Of a DNA stretch of 21,803 bases, positions 2,694 to 21,803 are shown one piece after another. The DNA lies in IMG/VR virus record IMGVR_UViG_3300032214_000147, positions 1 to 21,803 of that record; one strand, written 5' to 3'. Below the pieces are notes generated by a model, which was not told the origin of the DNA, searched no databases, and saw only the letters and a list, made by a program, of their open reading frames with translations. Position numbers and translations under genes: made by a program. Origin of the DNA: a virus. Each line of letters begins with the position of its first letter. Position 1 is the first letter of the stretch.

Positions 2694-2884
2694 TTACTAT
2701 TGATGCCAAACTTATTATCGGCAGGATCAAAATAGCGTGCCAAAGGTGCAACTAAAGCACCTGCCAAAATTGCATACTCAGCGTTCCAATCTGCAATTAA
2801 GGCTAATGCAGTTGTAATAGATGCGGCGGCAACGCTTCTTAGATAAGACTTAATAATCTCTTTTTTCTTAACATCTAATTTCAT
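2690..2884 (-). CDS. Holin candidate (64 aa, membrane)
   Basis: A short protein with a basic N-terminus (KLDVKKKEIIK) and two hydrophobic segments (about 16-30 and 35-50). Between and after them are the charged motifs DWNAEY and RYFDPADNKFG. Small size, two membrane segments and position immediately after the endolysin gene fit a class II holin, which would form lesions letting the endolysin reach peptidoglycan. Both gene ends make 4-bp ATGA overlaps, so all three lysis genes are translationally coupled. Which of the two small membrane proteins is the true holin cannot be decided from sequence. Confidence 0.65.
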   Translation of the reverse strand: MKLDVKKKEIIKSYLRSVAAASITTALALIADWNAEYAILAGALVAPLARYFDPADNKFGINSK

Positions 2885-3354
2885 TTTAATCCTAACTGTT
2901 TTATTTTTTGTTTAACCTCATTTTGATTCAACGCAATTTCAAAGTGCATATCATCTTTACGCCTTTTGTAATTACCGCCCCAGGTCAAACCATATTTAGT
3001 TATTAGTAGGTTAATTGTATTACGCTGATCCTTATTAAATGTATTTGACTTGCCCAAAGGATGCTTAATTGCATTTAAATCTATGGCTGTACCGGATGCG
3101 TGATTACTTAAAATTCTATCTGATCCCCTGGTTTGCCTAAAGGCGTAACCCCAATCATCTAATTGGCCTTCATCTATTGGCTCAACTAACTCATGAAAAT
3201 CTTTAGCAAAACTCACCAGGATTGGTGCAACGGCTTTGGCACATGCAAACCTGATCTTTGTGCCTGGCACTGTAAAAGTTTCAATGCCTAACGCTTTACG
3301 ATCTTCACTAGCCGGCCAACCATTAGGGCTGGTAAGTTCTCTAATAATGGCCAT
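2881..3354 (-). CDS. M15 family peptidase endolysin (D-Ala/L-Ala peptidase fold)
   Basis: A single-domain protein of 157 residues with the zinc signatures of peptidase family M15 (VanY/L-Ala-D-Glu peptidases). SNHASGTAIDLN gives H85 and D92, and DDMHFE gives H137 in this numbering. It should cut the peptide stem of host peptidoglycan for lysis. No signal peptide or separate cell-wall-binding domain is visible, so export should depend on the neighbouring holin. The ATG at 3354 is chosen; an adjacent GTG at 3357 is the alternative. The phage also carries a transglycosylase-like gene far away at 17838-18365, so two different wall bonds may be attacked by genes in different modules. Confidence 0.85.
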   Translation of the reverse strand: MAIIRELTSPNGWPASEDRKALGIETFTVPGTKIRFACAKAVAPILVSFAKDFHELVEPIDEGQLDDWGYAFRQTRGSDRILSNHASGTAIDLNAIKHPLGKSNTFNKDQRNTINLLITKYGLTWGGNYKRRKDDMHFEIALNQNEVKQKIKQLGLK

Positions 3355-3365
3355 CACCTACATGC

Positions 3366-3581
3366 TTATGAAAGCAATAACCTTGCTTCTTCTTCGGTGA
3401 TTCCCAAGCGATCTAATAAATCAGCCTTAGCAATTGCATCAGCGGCCTTCTTTGCTTCTTCTGCCGCTTTTTGTTCAGCATATTGTTCAGCCATAGCCTC
3501 ACGCTCTGCAATTTCCTCAGCGGTTAATGCAATCTCTTGCACCTCACCTGTTGAGCAATCTACTACGATTTTATTAGTCAT
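3366..3581 (-). CDS. Small coiled-coil protein near tail fibre genes (71 aa)
   Basis: The N-terminus (KIVVDCSTGEVQEI) followed by a long Ala/Glu/Lys-rich helix (about 19-55) and a short helical end is a pattern commonly seen in small phage proteins just after tail fibre genes. I cannot name a confirmed function; an assembly or trimerisation helper for the fibres is plausible. A strong Shine-Dalgarno (AAGGAG) precedes the ATG, unlike many coupled genes here, so it may be translated independently. It lies 12 bp after the last adhesion-like paralogue and 11 bp before the endolysin. Confidence 0.65.
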   Translation of the reverse strand: MTNKIVVDCSTGEVQEIALTAEEIAEREAMAEQYAEQKAAEEAKKAADAIAKADLLDRLGITEEEARLLLS

Positions 3582-3593
3582 TTTATTTTCTCC

Positions 3594-4097
3594 TTATGCG
3601 TTAGATATTCCATATAGATAAGCGGTTGAGTATTGTTTAAAATTAAATCCTTCGTATGAAACAATAGTAATGCTAGTTATTGCAGAAGATGTTGTAATTA
3701 AACCAGCGGCTAGTTGAGTTATAGCACTAGTCGCGTTATTTTCAGTTACCGCATCAATAGAAACTGATTTATTTCCAGAAGATAAATAATTTGGAATATA
3801 CCACTCTGAATTACCAAATGTATTACTGGTTTGAGCATCATTATTTGTATAATCTGACAAAGCGGTATCTGTAGCACTTGCGGCAGAAGAACCATTACCA
3901 TATAAAAATCTTAATGAATATGCAGAAGCACTATTTACAGTTAATTTATTTGAATCTGTATTTACTGACCTAGTGGTTCTTGTTGATAATTTTAAAAGTA
4001 AATCAGTATATGTAGCAGGTATGGAAGTAAACTCTATATTAGCCGCACCACCACTACCCACCGTAACACTTGCAATTAAAGTATATGTAGTAGCCAT
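3594..4097 (-). CDS. Adhesion-like tail protein, paralogue 3 of 3 (167 aa)
   Basis: Ser/Thr/Asn/Gly-rich, predicted mostly beta. The N-terminal motif YTLIASVTVGSGGAA, then FTSIPATYTDL, and the C-terminal SAITSITI ... YLYGI recur in the two genes just upstream, while the middle parts differ strongly. The even beta-rich composition and position after minor tail genes point to a short tail fibre, tip protein or receptor-binding subunit exposed on the virion. The start overlaps the upstream paralogue by one base (TAATG). Function is inferred from context and composition; the family is one I have a general impression of from environmental phages but cannot name. Confidence 0.7.
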   Translation of the reverse strand: MATTYTLIASVTVGSGGAANIEFTSIPATYTDLLLKLSTRTTRSVNTDSNKLTVNSASAYSLRFLYGNGSSAASATDTALSDYTNNDAQTSNTFGNSEWYIPNYLSSGNKSVSIDAVTENNATSAITQLAAGLITTSSAITSITIVSYEGFNFKQYSTAYLYGISNA

Positions 4098-4573
4098 TAT
4101 TCCGCCTTAATTCCGTAGAGTGTAAAGGTTGAGCCAGTTGAAAAAGTATCATTACTTTTAATAGTTATAGATGTAATTGCACTTGTACTGCGCCATAACC
4201 CTACGCTGGCGGCAACATATAACCCAGCACCACCTAATCTATTTAAGGCAGTTTTGTAAGTTGTAGCATTACTATAATTTTGTATTTGCCATAATGCTGT
4301 ACTATCTGAATTATTCCAGTTAAAAGCATACATTTGACTACTAGAAGTAAATCTACCGCTTGTTGCAGTAGTGCCATTGCCCCGCATATAAGTTGATGAG
4401 TAATTAGTGGCGGTGTCTGAGTTAAACCGTAATCCTAAAGTAGATTCACTTGAAGTTTTACCATTAGCAATAATAATTAAATCGGTATAAGTCCCTGCTA
4501 TAGAAGTAAAAGAAACATCTGCTGAACCACTACCTAAAGTAGTAGTCGCTATCTTTTCATATGTGGCTGTCAT
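4097..4573 (-). CDS. Adhesion-like tail protein, paralogue 2 of 3 (158 aa)
   Basis: It has the same architecture as its neighbours: N-terminal TYEKIATTTLGSGSADV and FTSIAGTYTDL, C-terminal SAITSITIKSND and FTLYGIKAE. The central 80 residues (around 40-125) have little obvious resemblance to the other two copies. TAATG one-base overlaps at both ends place it in an unbroken three-gene array. It probably forms part of the tail tip or fibre and contacts the host surface; this is inference from position, beta-rich composition and the conserved-ends/variable-middle pattern. Confidence 0.7.
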   Translation of the reverse strand: MTATYEKIATTTLGSGSADVSFTSIAGTYTDLIIIANGKTSSESTLGLRFNSDTATNYSSTYMRGNGTTATSGRFTSSSQMYAFNWNNSDSTALWQIQNYSNATTYKTALNRLGGAGLYVAASVGLWRSTSAITSITIKSNDTFSTGSTFTLYGIKAE

Positions 4574-5127
4574 TATGCTCCCTTAATTCCGTATAGGGCG
4601 AATTGAGAATACTGCGCTATATTTAGAGTAGGAATATTAAAAGATAAACTGGTTATAGCATTTGTATTTACTGCATATAAATTAGAATATAAAACTAACT
4701 CACCTGATCCGTTTAAATCTACGCCGTTCAAAGTCCTAATAGTTTTATTTTTATTAGTATTTGCATAATCTAAAATATCTATTACTGCCACACCAAAAAT
4801 ATTAGTAGAACCTGCACTACTTGTATTCATTACAACATTAGAACCACCTACTCCAGCCAACACCACAGAGCCATTAGCATATAGATAATGATTTTTAGTT
4901 AAACTGTTCCCGTTAATAGTCATACTAATTGTTTCTAAACTTGTACCTGCGTTATCTGATTTGGCTAAACATCTAACCTGTAAATGTGTATAGGTAGAAG
5001 GTATAGAACTAAAGGTTACAGTTGCACTTCCACCTGAGCCAACAGTTACAGTAGCAATAGATTCATAAGAACCTGCCGCACCTGCCGCCGCACCACCACT
5101 ATCTAATATCCCAAGTATTAAAGACAT
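4573..5127 (-). CDS. Adhesion-like tail protein, paralogue 1 of 3 (184 aa)
   Basis: The longest of three paralogues. An extra hydrophobic/Gly-Ala leader (MSLILGILDSGGAAAGAAG) precedes the shared core SYESIATVTVGSGGSA and FSSIPSTYTHL. The C-terminal AITSLSFNI and FALYGIKGA match the other copies. The leader could dock it to the tail while the others bind through the core; this is speculative. The start is placed at the ATG that overlaps the upstream stop by one base (TAATG at 5127). An in-frame start at 5154 would extend 27 bases into the previous gene and is less likely. Confidence 0.7.
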   Translation of the reverse strand: MSLILGILDSGGAAAGAAGSYESIATVTVGSGGSATVTFSSIPSTYTHLQVRCLAKSDNAGTSLETISMTINGNSLTKNHYLYANGSVVLAGVGGSNVVMNTSSAGSTNIFGVAVIDILDYANTNKNKTIRTLNGVDLNGSGELVLYSNLYAVNTNAITSLSFNIPTLNIAQYSQFALYGIKGA

Positions 5128-5507
5128 TAGGCAATGCCACCCACGATATACCAAGAATCTGTACTGACTTTAATTAAACTTGCCGCTTTAAATTGTCCGG
5201 TAATTGTTGGGTTAGTAGATACCGCACCACTTGATGCAAGCGTTACACCTGATCCCTGAATAATAGATACTGTGCCACCTGATCCAATTTTGATTACATT
5301 TACTACGCTTCCAGTTGTCATTGCCACTGTATTAAAAGGCGGCACTGTAATTGTGGTTGTGCCGGTATTTGAATAAGTAATAAGTTTATTATCTGCATCA
5401 GTTACAACTAAGGTGTCTGATGTGGCGGTAACAGCTCTAACCGATAGGTTGGCAATAGAGTTCATCTGCGCCGCTGTAAGTACCTGACCAACTGAAAAGG
5501 TTGCCAT
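5127..5507 (-). CDS. Minor tail protein, beta-rich (126 aa)
   Basis: The N-terminus FSVGQVLTAAQMN matches a motif that often opens phage tail fibre and baseplate proteins (vLTAaqlN). The remainder is Thr/Val/Gly-rich, with TTTITVPPF and repeated short beta segments, as in many appendage proteins. The gene lies between the 416-residue minor tail gene and the three adhesion-like genes. It may connect the appendages to the tail tip. A strong Shine-Dalgarno (TAGGAGAATATAG before the ATG) is present after a 10-bp gap. Confidence 0.7.
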   Translation of the reverse strand: MATFSVGQVLTAAQMNSIANLSVRAVTATSDTLVVTDADNKLITYSNTGTTTITVPPFNTVAMTTGSVVNVIKIGSGGTVSIIQGSGVTLASSGAVSTNPTITGQFKAASLIKVSTDSWYIVGGIA

Positions 5508-5517
5508 CTATATTCTC

Positions 5518-6768
5518 CTAATAGGCCAATGAATCTTCATCTAAAATTCCATCAACAGTAGAGTCTAGCAAAAATCCTGATGCAAAGGGTTGAGCGCATG
5601 TAAAATTTACTAGGAAAGATTTAGGGGTGATCTGATAGGTAAGGCCTGTTATTACGCTATCTGTAACCACATTGCCAGCCGGTAGGGTTTGAGTTACTTC
5701 TATTGGGTCAAATACATCTAAATTTAAAGCCGCTATCACACGGCTAGAATCATCCTCACCAAAGGCATCAACTGTTAGTGAGTTAAGCTGTAAATCTACG
5801 CCTTGCTCTTTTCGGCTTGCAATAATCATTCTTGCCTGATTAAGCGCATCCGCTTCTGTTTGCATGATGCCGCTTCTTACCCGGCTATGTTGAAAATAAT
5901 CATCAATGCTTGCCGTATCACTGGCAGTTTGTCCGGTCAATCCTGTTGGGGTAACTGTTACTTTATTGATCATTTGGTAATCTGAAATATCAAATTCCAC
6001 TGCCTGATAAGTAATATCACCTGAGCCTGGTACATCACTAAAAGCTGTTGCCGTACCACCTGATGCGGTAATAATGTCGGTGCGTGATAAGAACTTTGCA
6101 TAGCCGCGTTGATCCATATAAAAAGAACCTAAATCGGTGGCTTCAACTTCCTGGCACGCGGCCAGTAATGATCTTGAACTACCGGCATCTGCCTGTACTG
6201 TTGTAGTTGTGGTTGTAGATATATCACGCATACCACCCGGCCATTCCCCGGCATCCAACAAACTTGAAATTCTTTGTGCGGTAGTTTGTCCGGCAGTGCC
6301 ACCACTTACTGATGTTATTGTAGTTAGGTTTAGTAATTGAAATCCATCTACGCATGACAAAGTTACATACGCCGGATCAAATCCAGTAGGGCTTTGGTAA
6401 TTCCATTCCTGTACATACATAGAACCTAAGTTATATGTAACACCTAAATACTCTGCCGTAAACCGAATCTTACGCATAGGCTTAATCTTGCCGTATAAAG
6501 AAGAACCGGTATTGGCTGGATTAAATTCACCGGTTTCATCAACAAATGTAATGCGTGCAGTACCGCCGGTAAATGAATCTGATGATCTATTAAATGCACG
6601 CCTGATATAGCACTGAGTTACAAAGTCTGTTATATCAACTGTATCAGCGGCGGCAGTACCTAATACCGCTACATCCAATGGCGTTGCAGGATCATCTAAT
6701 ACTAATGCTGGGTCAAATGAAGCACCGCCTGAAAAGTCAATTTCAGCTCTAAATATTGCCGCTGGCAT
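5518..6768 (-). CDS. Minor tail protein / tail tip protein (416 aa)
   Basis: Located directly after the tape measure, where siphoviruses encode distal tail and tail-tip proteins. The N-terminal ~170 residues contain segments such as ITDFVTQCYIRRAFNR, ARITFVDETGEFNP and LGSMYVQEWNY. These resemble minor tail proteins in which a beta-sandwich domain binds the end of the tail tube. The C-terminal part ends in a short acidic tail (about 400-416). It should form the tail tip or hub. I cannot separate Dit-like from Tal-like regions by eye. The start makes a one-base TAATG overlap with the tape-measure stop. Confidence 0.75.
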   Translation of the reverse strand: MPAAIFRAEIDFSGGASFDPALVLDDPATPLDVAVLGTAAADTVDITDFVTQCYIRRAFNRSSDSFTGGTARITFVDETGEFNPANTGSSLYGKIKPMRKIRFTAEYLGVTYNLGSMYVQEWNYQSPTGFDPAYVTLSCVDGFQLLNLTTITSVSGGTAGQTTAQRISSLLDAGEWPGGMRDISTTTTTTVQADAGSSRSLLAACQEVEATDLGSFYMDQRGYAKFLSRTDIITASGGTATAFSDVPGSGDITYQAVEFDISDYQMINKVTVTPTGLTGQTASDTASIDDYFQHSRVRSGIMQTEADALNQARMIIASRKEQGVDLQLNSLTVDAFGEDDSSRVIAALNLDVFDPIEVTQTLPAGNVVTDSVITGLTYQITPKSFLVNFTCAQPFASGFLLDSTVDGILDEDSLAY

Positions 6769-8654
6769 TATCTTCCTAAATTAGTTAATTGAGTTACTGC
6801 ACCTGATCGGTTTAAGTTATACAAAGCATCTTGAATTACAGATTGCAATTCACCTTCTGATATAACTGACCCGGCTACATTAATATTTACAGTAGTTCCC
6901 ATACCACCCATTTTGTCTAGTGGTATTACCGCTTCTGATCCAGCTTCACCAATCAATGCAAGGGTTGGCTGATTAACAATGCCACCTTCTGCCATGCGTG
7001 GTATATCAAATAGTCTTTGATAATAATCTACCGCCTGCGCTGTATATCTTGCGCTTGATCCGGCCATAGCCGCATTTAAGCCTTCTTTTCTTAAATCTTC
7101 AAAAACTTGTTGGCCTAAAACATTTGGTGCTTCTCCTGTTAATACGGATTCTTGAAATCTTGGAGATGTTATTTGTTGAAATTGTTGCTGTTGATATTGG
7201 AATGTCATACCCACTGGCATTTTCTTTTTGCCAATTTCATCAAGCAATGCCAACATCTTGCGTAGTTCATCATTAGCGGCAAACAATGTGCGTAAGTAAA
7301 TAAGAACTTCTGTGGTTGTAACTCCCCACTTCTTAGCCAACATTTCAATTTCACCGGTTGTGATTTGGCCATCTTCAATAACCTTCAATACATCTGCATA
7401 GCGTTCGGCTTCATCAACGGCCTTTTTAGTACCATCTGCTAACTTCTGTAATATCTTTACACGCAACTCATCTTCGGCAGATAATTTACGGCTTAATGCC
7501 GCTTGTAGGTTGATCCGATCAAGATCAAACATGGCTTCTAGTTCGGCCTTCTTTTTATCTAAAGCCTGTTGTGCCAATTTTTCTTTAGTTAATTTCTTTT
7601 GTTTGTTTAAGGCTTCAGCCGCCATCTTGTCTAATCGTGCTTGTAATTTGGCTAACTTTTCGGCAATGGCTTTTTGTTCGGCGGATTGCTCTAAAGTATC
7701 GCCTGTACTTTCAGCAATCTTTTTACCTTCTTTTGCTAAACCTTCAAACCCTTGTAACCACCCACCAATAACAGGTATATTTTCTGCACTAAACAAAAAT
7801 TTAAGTACACGATTGCCTTCAATTTTTTTGGCTAAACCATCAAAAGCATTAGTAATTTTTTGCGCTTTATCTGCCAAAGCAATTAAAATATAACCACCAT
7901 TTAAACCCAATGATTCAAGTTTTGCGCCAAAATAATCAGAAGCATTACCACCACCAATAAGAATTTCAGTTGCAGTAATAAACCCTTCACCTAAACTTGT
8001 TTGTGCCGCACCTGCACTAATTTTTAAATTATCTAATTGACCACCAAAGGTTTCAGTAGCTCTTTTAGCCGCACCACCAAATTTTAAAGTTAAGTAATCT
8101 GTGATCTCTGCTAAGCCAATTTCCTTAGCAGTTACCGCATCAAAGCCTAAACCTAATGCGCCTAATGCCTTAAAGTTGCCCCGGCTTGCTTTACCTAACG
8201 CATCTGATACCTGGGTTAAATCAACACCTGCACCTACGCTGGTATCTACTGCAACATTAAATAAATCTTGCGCCTTTGTTAAATCGGCAGTTTGAATAAT
8301 TAAGCCATTGATTGCCGGGGTCAATCTATCTTTAGTAATATTGGATGCTTTTTCTATACCACTAATAAAAGAATTTACACTAGGCAATTGATCTAATTGG
8401 TTAATTGATCTTAAAGATTGTTCAACTGATTTATCTAATCTTTCCTGGGCTAACGCCGCCTGTATAGAATTTTTTGCAAAAATCGCCATGCCAGCCGCGG
8501 CCGCAATTGCACCAGCTTTGGCAAAGGATTTTAATCTAAATGTGCTAGTAGCAACTACCTTATCAAAACCTTGTAACTCTTTGGTGGCGCGCTCTAATCC
8601 TTTTTTATCAAACTTGGTTAAAAAGTTAATCGCAACATATTGAGCTAGTGCCAT
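6768..8654 (-). CDS. Tape measure protein (628 aa)
   Basis: The longest gene, following the tail chaperone region. Residues about 1-70 include KFDKKGLERATKELQGFDK and a hydrophobic Ala-rich segment (AKAGAIAAAAGMAIFAK) typical of tape measures. Long helical charged stretches run through about 340-470. The C-terminal motif ALIGEAGSEAVIPLDK is a hallmark of tape-measure proteins. It sets tail length during assembly and may help DNA entry. At roughly 0.15 nm per residue, a tail of about 94 nm is expected, short for a siphovirus. The gene starts 2 bp after the upstream stop. Confidence 0.9.
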   Translation of the reverse strand: MALAQYVAINFLTKFDKKGLERATKELQGFDKVVATSTFRLKSFAKAGAIAAAAGMAIFAKNSIQAALAQERLDKSVEQSLRSINQLDQLPSVNSFISGIEKASNITKDRLTPAINGLIIQTADLTKAQDLFNVAVDTSVGAGVDLTQVSDALGKASRGNFKALGALGLGFDAVTAKEIGLAEITDYLTLKFGGAAKRATETFGGQLDNLKISAGAAQTSLGEGFITATEILIGGGNASDYFGAKLESLGLNGGYILIALADKAQKITNAFDGLAKKIEGNRVLKFLFSAENIPVIGGWLQGFEGLAKEGKKIAESTGDTLEQSAEQKAIAEKLAKLQARLDKMAAEALNKQKKLTKEKLAQQALDKKKAELEAMFDLDRINLQAALSRKLSAEDELRVKILQKLADGTKKAVDEAERYADVLKVIEDGQITTGEIEMLAKKWGVTTTEVLIYLRTLFAANDELRKMLALLDEIGKKKMPVGMTFQYQQQQFQQITSPRFQESVLTGEAPNVLGQQVFEDLRKEGLNAAMAGSSARYTAQAVDYYQRLFDIPRMAEGGIVNQPTLALIGEAGSEAVIPLDKMGGMGTTVNINVAGSVISEGELQSVIQDALYNLNRSGAVTQLTNLGR

Positions 8655-16285: not shown

Positions 16286-16541
16286 CCTCATCAGGTAATG
16301 CACATGAATCCCATATTTCACGCAACTCTTTAGATATGGATGGGATGGTGTGGCCACCTTTACCGGATTCTTCAATACGATCCCAGGCGCGTGCTAAACC
16401 TAATAACATTTCACGCTTAACATCATCAATATCATTACGGCCTTGCAATGATTTGACCATAGCGGAAGTGTGGCGGCCTAGCTTCTTTTTAGGCTTACCA
16501 CTTGCGACTATTTTTAATTGCTTTGCGTTTTGCATTTCCAT
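16269..16541 (-). CDS. Terminase small subunit (90 aa)
   Basis: A short basic-then-acidic protein directly before the large terminase, with helical segments (KSLQGRNDIDDVKREMLLGLARAWDRIEE). This matches small terminases of siphoviruses with an upstream HNH gene. It should recognise the packaging site on concatemeric DNA and recruit the large subunit. An AAGGGG Shine-Dalgarno supports the ATG at 16541; a GTG three codons upstream (16550) is the alternative. It overlaps the HNH gene by 47 bp and the large terminase start by 17 bp. Confidence 0.8.
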   Translation of the reverse strand: MEMQNAKQLKIVASGKPKKKLGRHTSAMVKSLQGRNDIDDVKREMLLGLARAWDRIEESGKGGHTIPSISKELREIWDSCALPDEDDIFE

Positions 16542-16755
16542 ATTTAGCACCCCTTGAATAGTTACAGCTTGAACATGCTGGCCTTAATGAACCCACCCAA
16601 AGTTCCGGTGACGGAAAGGAATCAATGGGTGGTTCATGGTCTAGCGTGGTTGCGACAGCCTTTTTACAGTAAAAACATTTTGGTTTTTGAGCCAAAACAA
16701 TTTCTCTGATTTTCTTATAGTTCCCATTATATTTTCTACTTTTTAAAGTTTTCAT
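16495..16755 (-). CDS. HNH endonuclease next to terminase (86 aa)
   Basis: Compact HNH nuclease with a zinc-binding pair CFYC (C27, C30), the catalytic DH (D39, H40) in TLDHEPPI and the second zinc pair CSSC followed by N65 (CSSCNYSRGA). HNH proteins directly upstream of the small terminase are known to assist cohesive-end cleavage during packaging in HK97-like phages. The gene is therefore probably part of the packaging machine rather than a homing endonuclease. The ATG lacks a clear Shine-Dalgarno. Confidence 0.85.
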   Translation of the reverse strand: MKTLKSRKYNGNYKKIREIVLAQKPKCFYCKKAVATTLDHEPPIDSFPSPELWVGSLRPACSSCNYSRGAKYGNAKRKAIKNSRKW

Positions 16756-20148: not shown

Positions 20149-20335
20149 ATTTCACCGCTTCCTTGAACTTGTCTAACCAATAGGCTTCAACCATTTTGGC
20201 TGATAGCCTTCCTCTGATCTGCCTAGCACCAATAGCCTTTTTGGCGTGTTGGCGGATCAAAGAAGCTTTTACAAAATGCTTGCGTTTTTCATCCACATAA
20301 GCACCTGATTGTTTATCATATTTAACTAATTCCAA
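20138..20335 (-). CDS. Small basic protein with TTG start (65 aa)
   Basis: Basic (many Lys/Arg) and predicted helical, with KHFVKASLIRQHAKKAIG and ARQIRGRLSAKM. It may bind DNA or RNA. No ATG is available near the start: translation probably begins at TTG (20335), which has an AAGGTG Shine-Dalgarno five bases upstream inside the end of the primase gene. It overlaps that gene by 10 bp and the next gene by 11 bp. Function unknown. Confidence 0.6.
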   Translation of the reverse strand: MELVKYDKQSGAYVDEKRKHFVKASLIRQHAKKAIGARQIRGRLSAKMVEAYWLDKFKEAVKYEL

Positions 20336-20811
20336 CTCATCACCTTATCTAACTCAGCCGGCAATGCCACCGGATCAACATCATTGATTACCTGGTATGT
20401 ACTGCCATTTGGGTGTATTGATGGTGGTAGTACTACATAACCCTTATGTTTAATATCTATACCTGGTATTAGTTTGCCTTTAAATTGCTTATCCTTATCA
20501 GCTACATAATAAAAGTGAAATCCATTATCTGTTTTAACTGTATGGGTATTAGACTTAACACATAGCCGGCGATAATCTTCCCATAGGGTTCTTGAAGCTA
20601 TATTGCGTATATCAAAATCAAGCACCACTAAGTTAGATTGCACAATAGCCAACCCAATATTGCGATCTTCTTCTTTAAACCATCTTTGTACAGTGGTTAG
20701 ATCATTGCTTGCATCAAGGTAGCCATGCCTTAAAAACTTACATGGCTCTTTAGATTGTGGTTTAAGTGGTAGTACAAACCAACCCTTTTCTACATAGGTT
20801 ACGGCGTTCAT
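20326..20811 (-). CDS. Prim-pol type DNA primase/polymerase domain protein (161 aa)
   Basis: It matches the N-terminal bifunctional primase-polymerase domain: GWFVLPLKPQSKEPC near the start, the catalytic DxD pair in VVLDFDIR (D65, D67), the TDNGFHFYY segment with H99, and GIDIKHKGYVVLPPS. It should synthesise primers and perhaps short DNA stretches at the phage origin. It is a minimal version: there is no fused helicase, and none is seen nearby. The start is the ATG forming an ATGA overlap with the preceding gene at 20811; longer starts upstream lack family similarity. Confidence 0.85.
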   Translation of the reverse strand: MNAVTYVEKGWFVLPLKPQSKEPCKFLRHGYLDASNDLTTVQRWFKEEDRNIGLAIVQSNLVVLDFDIRNIASRTLWEDYRRLCVKSNTHTVKTDNGFHFYYVADKDKQFKGKLIPGIDIKHKGYVVLPPSIHPNGSTYQVINDVDPVALPAELDKVMSWN

Positions 20812-21077
20812 GCATAAACCCATGATCCGCGGTAATTGGTTGTAAAGCAATATTGACCAACAGCATTATCAAAAGAGATGCTGAAATCATATTTATTTTG
20901 CTTTAAAAACTCAATAGCTAATATTGCAGAAGCATAATTTTCTACCCAGTAAATAAACAGATGCGACCAACAAATTGAATCTTCAAACCTATCTTTTTGT
21001 TTAAGCCAATCCGGTTCAGTTGCCCATTCCATTTGTGCATTAGTTAGAGCTTCAAATTGATTCTTTGTAATTTTCAT
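20808..21077 (-). CDS. Early protein of unknown function (89 aa)
   Basis: No family recognised. It is rich in aromatic residues (seven Trp/Tyr/Phe within SICWSHLFIYWVENYA and nearby) and predicted alpha then beta (YDFSISFDNAVGQYCFT). The aromatic content and size fit a compact protein-protein binder. It lies between the HicB-like gene and the primase, with TAATG and ATGA overlaps. Early placement suggests a host takeover or anti-defence candidate, without direct evidence. Confidence 0.6.
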   Translation of the reverse strand: MKITKNQFEALTNAQMEWATEPDWLKQKDRFEDSICWSHLFIYWVENYASAILAIEFLKQNKYDFSISFDNAVGQYCFTTNYRGSWVYA

Positions 21078-21547: not shown

Positions 21548-21803
21548 TCACCCAAAGGCCTTACCCATAGCTGTAAATGAACCATCTGCATTGAAGGGAA
21601 TCATCTCCGCGCTTACATTGCCGCGCTTAATATGTATGATCACTGCCGCGGCTTGCCAGTTTGCATAGCCTCTAATGCCCAAATAAGCCATTTTCTTCAT
21701 GTCGCATGTATGACCACATTCAATACCCACTAAAACACGCTCTAAACGGCCGTTAAAGGCTTCTGAGTGGCATTGGTAGCCCATCCTATGAGTATGCCCC
21801 GAC
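21548..21803 (-). CDS. Calcineurin-like metallophosphoesterase, C-terminal part (cut by window edge)
   Basis: This is the end of the gene whose beginning is at 1-638. The part within the repeat (21681-21803) duplicates GHTHRMG to MAYL, and the unique part (21548-21680) adds the last 44 residues, ending GKAFG at TGA. A start at the internal ATG (21784) would remove the metal-binding residues and is an artefact of the cut. Seen as one gene the protein is 256 residues, a normal size for a single-domain enzyme of this family. Confidence 0.85.
   Translation of the reverse strand, partial: SGHTHRMGYQCHSEAFNGRLERVLVGIECGHTCDMKKMAYLGIRGYANWQAAAVIIHIKRGNVSAEMIPFNADGSFTAMGKAFG
21681..21803. repeat. 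Right copy of exact 123-bp terminal repeat
   Basis: Identical to bases 1-123. Deleting one copy and closing the circle gives an intact metallophosphoesterase gene. It indicates a complete circular assembly rather than a fragment. Confidence 0.95.

Follow-up and report, generated by a model that had tools for sequence, protein, structure and literature searches.

The usual picture of a phage adhesin tip is a homotrimer that evolves through mutation or through the swap of one tail-fibre gene. Three-gene tail heterotrimers and variable recognition islands are, in addition, already known. In the virophage DSLV2, three consecutive paralogous tail genes (QIG59353-55) form trees that group by position and not by virus, and co-expression yields a 1:1:1 heterotrimer that can be purified and binds cells (PMC12724248). 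The consecutive baseplate-associated proteins gp35, gp36 and gp37 of the mycobacteriophage Mysterious assemble into a beta-sandwich heterotrimer, present in six copies around the baseplate (PMC13252515, a cryo-EM preprint of 2026). Two Planktophila phages, LanE43AprE7 and LanE43AprF5 (E7 and F5 below), were both isolated on one strain, Planktophila LanE-43, and a 5-kbp variable tail island including 'three proteins encoding DUF2541' was reported in them, for which host recognition was suggested (PMC10202952). Finally, near-identical phages with metaviromic islands, or flexible gene variants, carry alternative host-recognition alleles (tail fibre, C1q-like), a pattern attributed to recombination, and homing endonucleases are enriched at these variants (PMC3909814, PMC7468147).

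We analyzed a viral record of 21,803 bp (IMG/VR IMGVR_UViG_3300032214_000147; this whole stretch is the window below) that carries three consecutive paralogous tail genes, named A, B and C in their order of transcription on the minus strand. As in DSLV2, the three paralogues form position-specific lineages. The DSLV2 proteins, however, have a PF07484 collar and likeness to the T4 gp37 needle and are encoded beside a minor capsid gene, whereas A-B-C are predicted beta-sandwiches in a tail module; PF07484 had no match in A, B and C of the window or in 75 relatives of C. Subunit-by-subunit allele exchange is not described for DSLV2 (PMC12724248). Mysterious, an actinobacterial siphophage that we compared by its description, has three consecutive genes and a beta-sandwich like A-B-C, but gp35 carries a beta-hairpin arm at its N terminus and gp37 a C-terminal segment that forms a bridge, whereas A, B and C are compact and of similar length. 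The 'DUF2541' proteins of E7 and F5 are probably A-B-C; DUF2541 itself had no match in any A-B-C member scanned (A, B and C of the window and the 75 relatives of C). Their report does not describe them as paralogues, as an obligate ordered set, as a heterotrimer or as individually exchanged (PMC10202952). A-B-C share with the metaviromic islands a divergent region between otherwise near-identical phages, as seen by genome comparison, but those islands concern single recognition genes, whereas A-B-C are three linked paralogues that are exchanged singly while the set and its order stay fixed. We found no description of an obligate paralogous triplet with subunit-by-subunit exchange in the open-access literature, and this is the part of the present analysis that appears to be new.

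The tail module and its three paralogous genes

The window ends in an exact 123-bp direct repeat (1-123 and 21681-21803), suggesting that the record is probably complete and represents a very small genome of the siphophage type, with about 21.7 kb of unique sequence. A metallophosphatase-like ORF spans the join of the terminal repeat. A nucleotide search of GenBank phages with the whole window gave no match. Outside the tail module, the window encodes a stand-alone N-terminal Prim-Pol domain protein (20326-20850; PF09250, E 1e-29) and, upstream of the terminase genes, a small HNH/endonuclease VII-like ORF (16495-16755) with a weak Pfam match (E 0.003).

In the window as in its relatives, A-B-C belong to the tail module, where they follow the tape measure and distal tail genes and precede those for lysis (Table 1). 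The order MTP, g85, gp224, TMP, dit416, g126, A, B, C, g71, endolysin/holin is conserved in the relatives, including that of dit416 among its neighbors, and the major tail protein gene is upstream of A in the window also. Judging from its position, we infer that dit416 is a distal-tail protein. The genes downstream of A-B-C encode g71, an M15 endolysin, small membrane-like proteins, a glycosyltransferase-like protein and an epimerase. These epimerase (PF01370) and glycosyltransferase-like genes (910-2468), which follow the lysis genes, are kept in 21 and 27 of the first 150 loci. The small protein g71 is present in 136 of the 150 loci of the first fetched set and in 388 loci overall, and its window copy had no match in a Pfam scan. 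Because its divergence tracks that of C (rho 0.32 between distance matrices), g71 is possibly an assembly chaperone.

Table 1. Features of the A-B-C locus in the window, in order of transcription.
Feature	Position	Strand	Basis or remark
Tape measure protein	6768..8654	-	PHROG tail length tape measure, E 4e-9
dit416, 416-aa tail protein, adjoins tape measure gene	5518..6768	-	PHROG 5313, E 2e-15, family without a named function
g126, 126-aa tail protein, directly upstream of A	5127..5507	-	Minor tail protein PHROG, E 3e-10
Allele-exchange island, whole A-B-C cassette	3594..5127	-	Identity profile of the window against L074
Gene A, 184 aa from ATG, first of triplet	4573..5127	-	Class A lineage among 297 distinct triplets
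A/B junction, TAATG stop/start overlap	4560..4590	-	Sequence; AAGGGAG ribosome-binding-like stretch inside the C-terminal codons of A (GGAATTAAGGGAGCATAATG)
Gene B, 158 aa, second of triplet	4097..4573	-	Class B lineage
B/C junction	4085..4115	-	Sequence; layout as at A/B (GGAATTAAGGCGGAATAATG)
Gene C, 167 aa, third of triplet	3594..4097	-	Class C lineage
g71, 71-aa small Ala/Glu-rich protein after C	3366..3581	-	Kept in nearly all relatives
Endolysin (M15 peptidase), last of tail module	2881..3357	-	PF13539, E 2e-15; PHROG endolysin, E 7e-25

Pairwise BLASTP confirmed that A, B and C are full-length homologues with a similarity far beyond chance (E values of 2e-15 for C and B, 2e-14 for C and A, and 3e-11 for B and A, at 30-35% identity over nearly the full length). 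The N- and C-terminal motifs that a first-pass annotation of this DNA had pointed out in three consecutive genes were invariant in a three-way alignment, and its coordinates for them were correct. Its picture of divergent middles holds in that variable parts exist, but not as one divergent block: homology runs through the proteins, and variable loops are separated by conserved strands. At both inner junctions the TAATG overlap is preceded by a very similar stretch (GGAATTAAGG...). As this stretch is made up of the codons of conserved C-terminal residues, the conserved gene ends partly double as translation signals. Neither Pfam nor PHROG gave a significant match for A, B or C of the window, the best ones being weak or below the cut-off, and profile searches against the sequences of solved structures (PDB) gave nothing significant.

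An obligate triplet of ancient origin

Seven scans of viral contigs, in which A, B and C each served as a separate bait, returned several hundred related loci. In a census of these loci with class-specific profiles, 278 non-truncated loci read ABC, 10 read ABCABC and 2 read ABCABCABC, in a survey that is similarity-ranked and not exhaustive and in which some contigs were counted more than once. Most of the remaining loci were cut off by a contig end. The exceptions were an extra B (L290, L309 and L356), one ambiguous third gene (L429), three unclear loci (L208-L210) and one locus (L177) from an Acidimicrobiaceae MAG with three members that resist clean assignment to the classes. Although each class was used as its own bait, no intact A-only, B-only or AB-only locus was present among the loci retrieved. 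These results show that A-B-C is an obligate set of fixed order.

Each of the three classes was monophyletic in a tree of 115 triplets (support of 0.996 for A, 0.993 for B and 0.997 for C). In a tree of 297 triplets the A class was clean, and one sequence was misplaced between B and C with low support. Because each gene position forms its own lineage in these trees, the triplication is ancient and older than all sampled relatives, one ancient triplication being the simplest reading of the sequences. A recent duplication was ruled out by the same two trees. The 297 triplets also revealed conserved residues that differ by class at equivalent positions (His48 in A, as against Asp31 in B and Asp32 in C), and arginines that are specific to a class (Arg52 in A, Arg40 in C, Arg112 and Arg128 in B), as expected for subunits that are not interchangeable.

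The divergent triplet of the Acidimicrobiaceae MAG (L177, 9153-11052), which does not sort cleanly into A, B and C, is possibly an early branch of the family. Streptomyces phage LazerLemon gp30 (L436, 5425-6621) is a long protein with one copy of the domain at its C terminus. The gp30 proteins of LazerLemon and Crosby match A-B-C weakly, each as one long protein with no neighboring paralogue detected, and a gp30-like protein is a possible single-gene ancestor of the triplet.

Selection within the triplet

The first-pass annotation had, as one option, explained the divergent middles by triplication followed by diversifying selection on residues 40-130. In favor of a recent triplication with positive selection for amino-acid change in the central regions, the loops do change at roughly twice the rate of the core: dN/dS, taken from 12 independent close pairs, was 0.47-0.54 in the loops and 0.23-0.30 in the core. 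However, no region had a dN/dS above 1 in the pairwise averages of these 12 pairs, the triplication predates every relative sampled, and near-clonal phages differ by the replacement of whole genes (see below). Selection on A-B-C thus appears, from these ratios, to be purifying overall, with freer loops, and we regard the explanation by recent triplication and positive selection as largely refuted and extremely improbable. The source of diversity described in the next section, replacement of whole-gene alleles, had not been proposed in that annotation.

Replacement of whole-gene alleles

Genome comparison showed that A-B-C are much more variable than the neighboring structural genes. The nearest relatives of the window phage are nearly the same as it apart from this cassette. 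Between the window and one of them (L074), nucleotide identity is 91.9% in the tape measure gene, 95.4% in dit416, 96.3% in g126, 97.2% in g71 and 94.5% in the endolysin gene, but only 67.8% in A, 62.7% in B and 60.9% in C; it falls at about position 5100 and recovers at about 3650-3594. Two further loci (L086 and L121) show the same drop at A-B-C against the window. Among pairs in which dit416 is at least 90% identical, g126 is at least 75% identical in 96% and g71 in 71%, whereas A, B and C reach this level in just 3, 2 and 2%. Distance matrices of dit416 and g126 are correlated (rho 0.68), whereas those of A and B (0.02), A and C (0.10) and B and C (0.16) hardly are. Mean divergence is similar across the compared genes, so that saturation does not explain these low values.

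The three genes are also exchanged separately. B alone differs while A and C match in the pairs L109/L112 and L072/L050, and C alone differs while A and B match in L003/L015. Conversely, L054/L058 and L005/L092 have C in common at 97% on a background of about 45% identity. Of the identity transitions, 60% fall within 60 nt of a gene boundary, compared with 26% if they were uniform, a clustering that is partly an artefact in that the conserved gene ends attract the call and limit exact mapping. These comparisons demonstrate that whole-gene alleles, single genes among them, are replaced in A-B-C, and new variants arise mainly in this way. Swapping genes separately may be how these viruses keep pace with changing hosts.

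Extra genes were found at the junctions in 12 loci, 10 times at A/B and 4 times at B/C. The four inserts that were scanned are HNH_3 endonucleases and the remainder are HNH-like by eye, with more than one HNH type represented. The HNH endonucleases may drive conversion of the neighboring gene, or they could be passengers. The loci with inserts are L025, L037, L050, L072, L103, L137, L171, L213, L333, L336, L393 and L430. No reverse transcriptase, as of a diversity-generating retroelement, was found among the larger window ORFs, which were scanned with Pfam.

A possible link to the host

Phages E7 and F5 (OX376640, OX376641) carry A-B-C. Only 1 base differs between their cassettes in 1,569, whereas divergence of up to 12% per 500 bp is seen across most of the tail sequence that flanks them. 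A shared cassette in two phages of one host strain is what a host-specificity cassette would predict, although one pair is not proof. Besides the Acidimicrobiaceae MAG, two further triplets lie in an actinobacterial MAG. Because Planktophila phages and actinobacterial MAGs carry A-B-C, the host of the window phage is probably, but not certainly, an aquatic (freshwater) actinobacterium, as judged from these relatives.

The same data bear on whether A-B-C contact the host at all. The triplet could instead serve the structure or assembly of the tail tip, with a diversity that tracks, for example, evasion of host surface proteases or superinfection exclusion. The short family members have no obvious binding domain and selection is purifying overall, both of which would suit such a role. 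A structural part should, however, vary with its neighbors, and these are near-identical where A-B-C differ; moreover, B and C have fusions to glycine-rich adhesin domains (see below), and E7 and F5, selected on one host, have virtually identical cassettes. We therefore consider a purely structural role very unlikely.

Predicted fold and domain fusions

AlphaFold modeled C as a twelve-strand, all-beta beta-sandwich (pLDDT 91.9) and A as a beta-sandwich with a matching strand pattern (pLDDT 87.5). Among predicted viral structures, the fold had 113 matches at E<=1e-3, many of them annotated as fibronectin type III, collagen-repeat, Stf-repeat or glycine-rich phage proteins. Solved structures match weakly; the recognizable ones are jelly-roll/beta-sandwich proteins such as galectin-8 and the Tuc2009 receptor-binding head. 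The A-B-C domain is thus confidently predicted to be a beta-sandwich that is widespread in phage tail-fibre proteins, and with no close solved structure at hand the proposal of trimerization draws on analogy. As findings that would speak against its reading, the first-pass annotation had named unrelated folds, or a location outside the tail module together with uniform purifying selection in related phages. The models of A and C share their strand pattern, and the genes sit in the tail module of the relatives; together with the fusions described below, module position and fold support its description of A-B-C as adhesion-like tail proteins.

Some relatives have the glycine-rich domain PF21722 (Gly_rich_2; phrog_2295, tail fibre tips) attached C-terminally to B and C, a domain that the short A, B and C proteins of the window lack. 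Among the 297 distinct triplets, an N-terminal extension occurs in 18 A proteins but in no B or C, whereas a C-terminal extension occurs in no A but in 37 B and 52 C proteins. In the cases tested, the extension of A holds fn3 and those of B and C are Gly_rich_2. This polarity fits an orientation of A toward the tail and of B and C toward the host, with A as the putative proximal, tail-attached subunit. The long forms of B and C coincide in 36 triplets where 6.5 would be expected, and in 16 triplets only C has a glycine-rich tip. The nearest-neighbor A of long-form triplets also belongs to a long-form triplet in 29 of 53 cases, compared with 9.4 by chance. The joint extension of B and C and the likeness of A in long-form triplets suggest that the subunits are not fully independent.

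Inter-protein coevolution was assessed with mean-field couplings in the 297 triplets and then in 216 short-form triplets with g71 as a control. Couplings within the proteins were strong and recurred at equivalent positions in A, B and C. Couplings of A with B, B with C and A with C were no stronger in the 216 short-form triplets than those with the g71 control, and for this reason we left them out as evidence for a heterotrimer.

A candidate heterotrimeric tail tip

Two arrangements of the three proteins have to be weighed. A, B and C could each form a homotrimer, either stacked (A3-B3-C3) or as three separate fibres, with all three needed but no mixing of subunits. Most phage fibre tips are homotrimers. 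The almost independent inheritance of A, B and C and the inter-protein couplings at control level agree with such an arrangement, and the 16 triplets with a glycine-rich tip on C only fit a C at the end of a stack. On the other hand, it does not readily account for the strict one-of-each composition, the multiples of three and the fixed order; the 36 triplets in which B and C are both extended C-terminally are awkward with B under C; and A never has a distal domain of its own (0 of 297). Because the couplings did not exceed their control and independent inheritance suits separate fibres, we give homotrimers a minor but real chance, while considering them unlikely.

We favor, with moderate confidence, the reading that A-B-C form a receptor-binding A:B:C heterotrimer at the tail tip whose subunits are exchanged one at a time. 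The obligate triplet, the fusion polarity, the fold, the allele island, linkage, single-gene swaps, the HNH genes at the joints and the E7/F5 pair count in its favor. Against it count the couplings at the level of the g71 control, the correlations of 0.02-0.16 among A, B and C, which would be expected of three separate fibres also, and the extra B in three loci. The first-pass annotation had offered a hetero-oligomeric tip of three related subunits as one option, and the strict co-occurrence of A, B and C, the role-specific extensions and the experimental precedents lend it support. We infer the 1:1:1 trimer itself, its contact with a receptor, endonuclease-driven exchange and an effect on host range.

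In such a tip, one copy each of A, B and C would fold as a beta-sandwich and assemble into the receptor-contacting heterotrimer, with the N terminus of A toward the tail and the loops, or in some relatives the glycine-rich C termini of B and C, toward the host. Position-specific conserved residues would keep A, B and C distinct while leaving the alleles of each class plug-compatible. Co-infecting phages would then recombine, with the conserved gene ends as guides and probably with help from the HNH endonucleases at the joints, so that one, two or three of the genes would be replaced and new adhesin combinations would arise on an unchanged tail.

A broader proposal, which we put forward only tentatively and hold to be somewhat less than an even bet, is that a large group of aquatic phages, probably of actinobacteria, has its host specificity set by a combinatorial code, in which the subunit alleles of the heterotrimer are drawn independently and reshuffled at gene boundaries with the help of HNH endonucleases. 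If so, a few hundred alleles could give very many receptor specificities. A tip of three separately exchanged paralogues would be a modular generator of specificity, common in aquatic metagenomes, and it offers a concrete hypothesis as to how the phages of abundant freshwater actinobacteria keep up with microdiversity among these hosts. The alleles of A, B and C could also serve as sequence tags for assigning phages from metagenomes to host strains. With the cassette present in two cultivated Planktophila phages, these ideas are testable now.

Some loci carry two or three complete A-B-C sets in tandem (L139, L182, L192, L193, L195, L378 and L239), sometimes one short and one glycine-rich.
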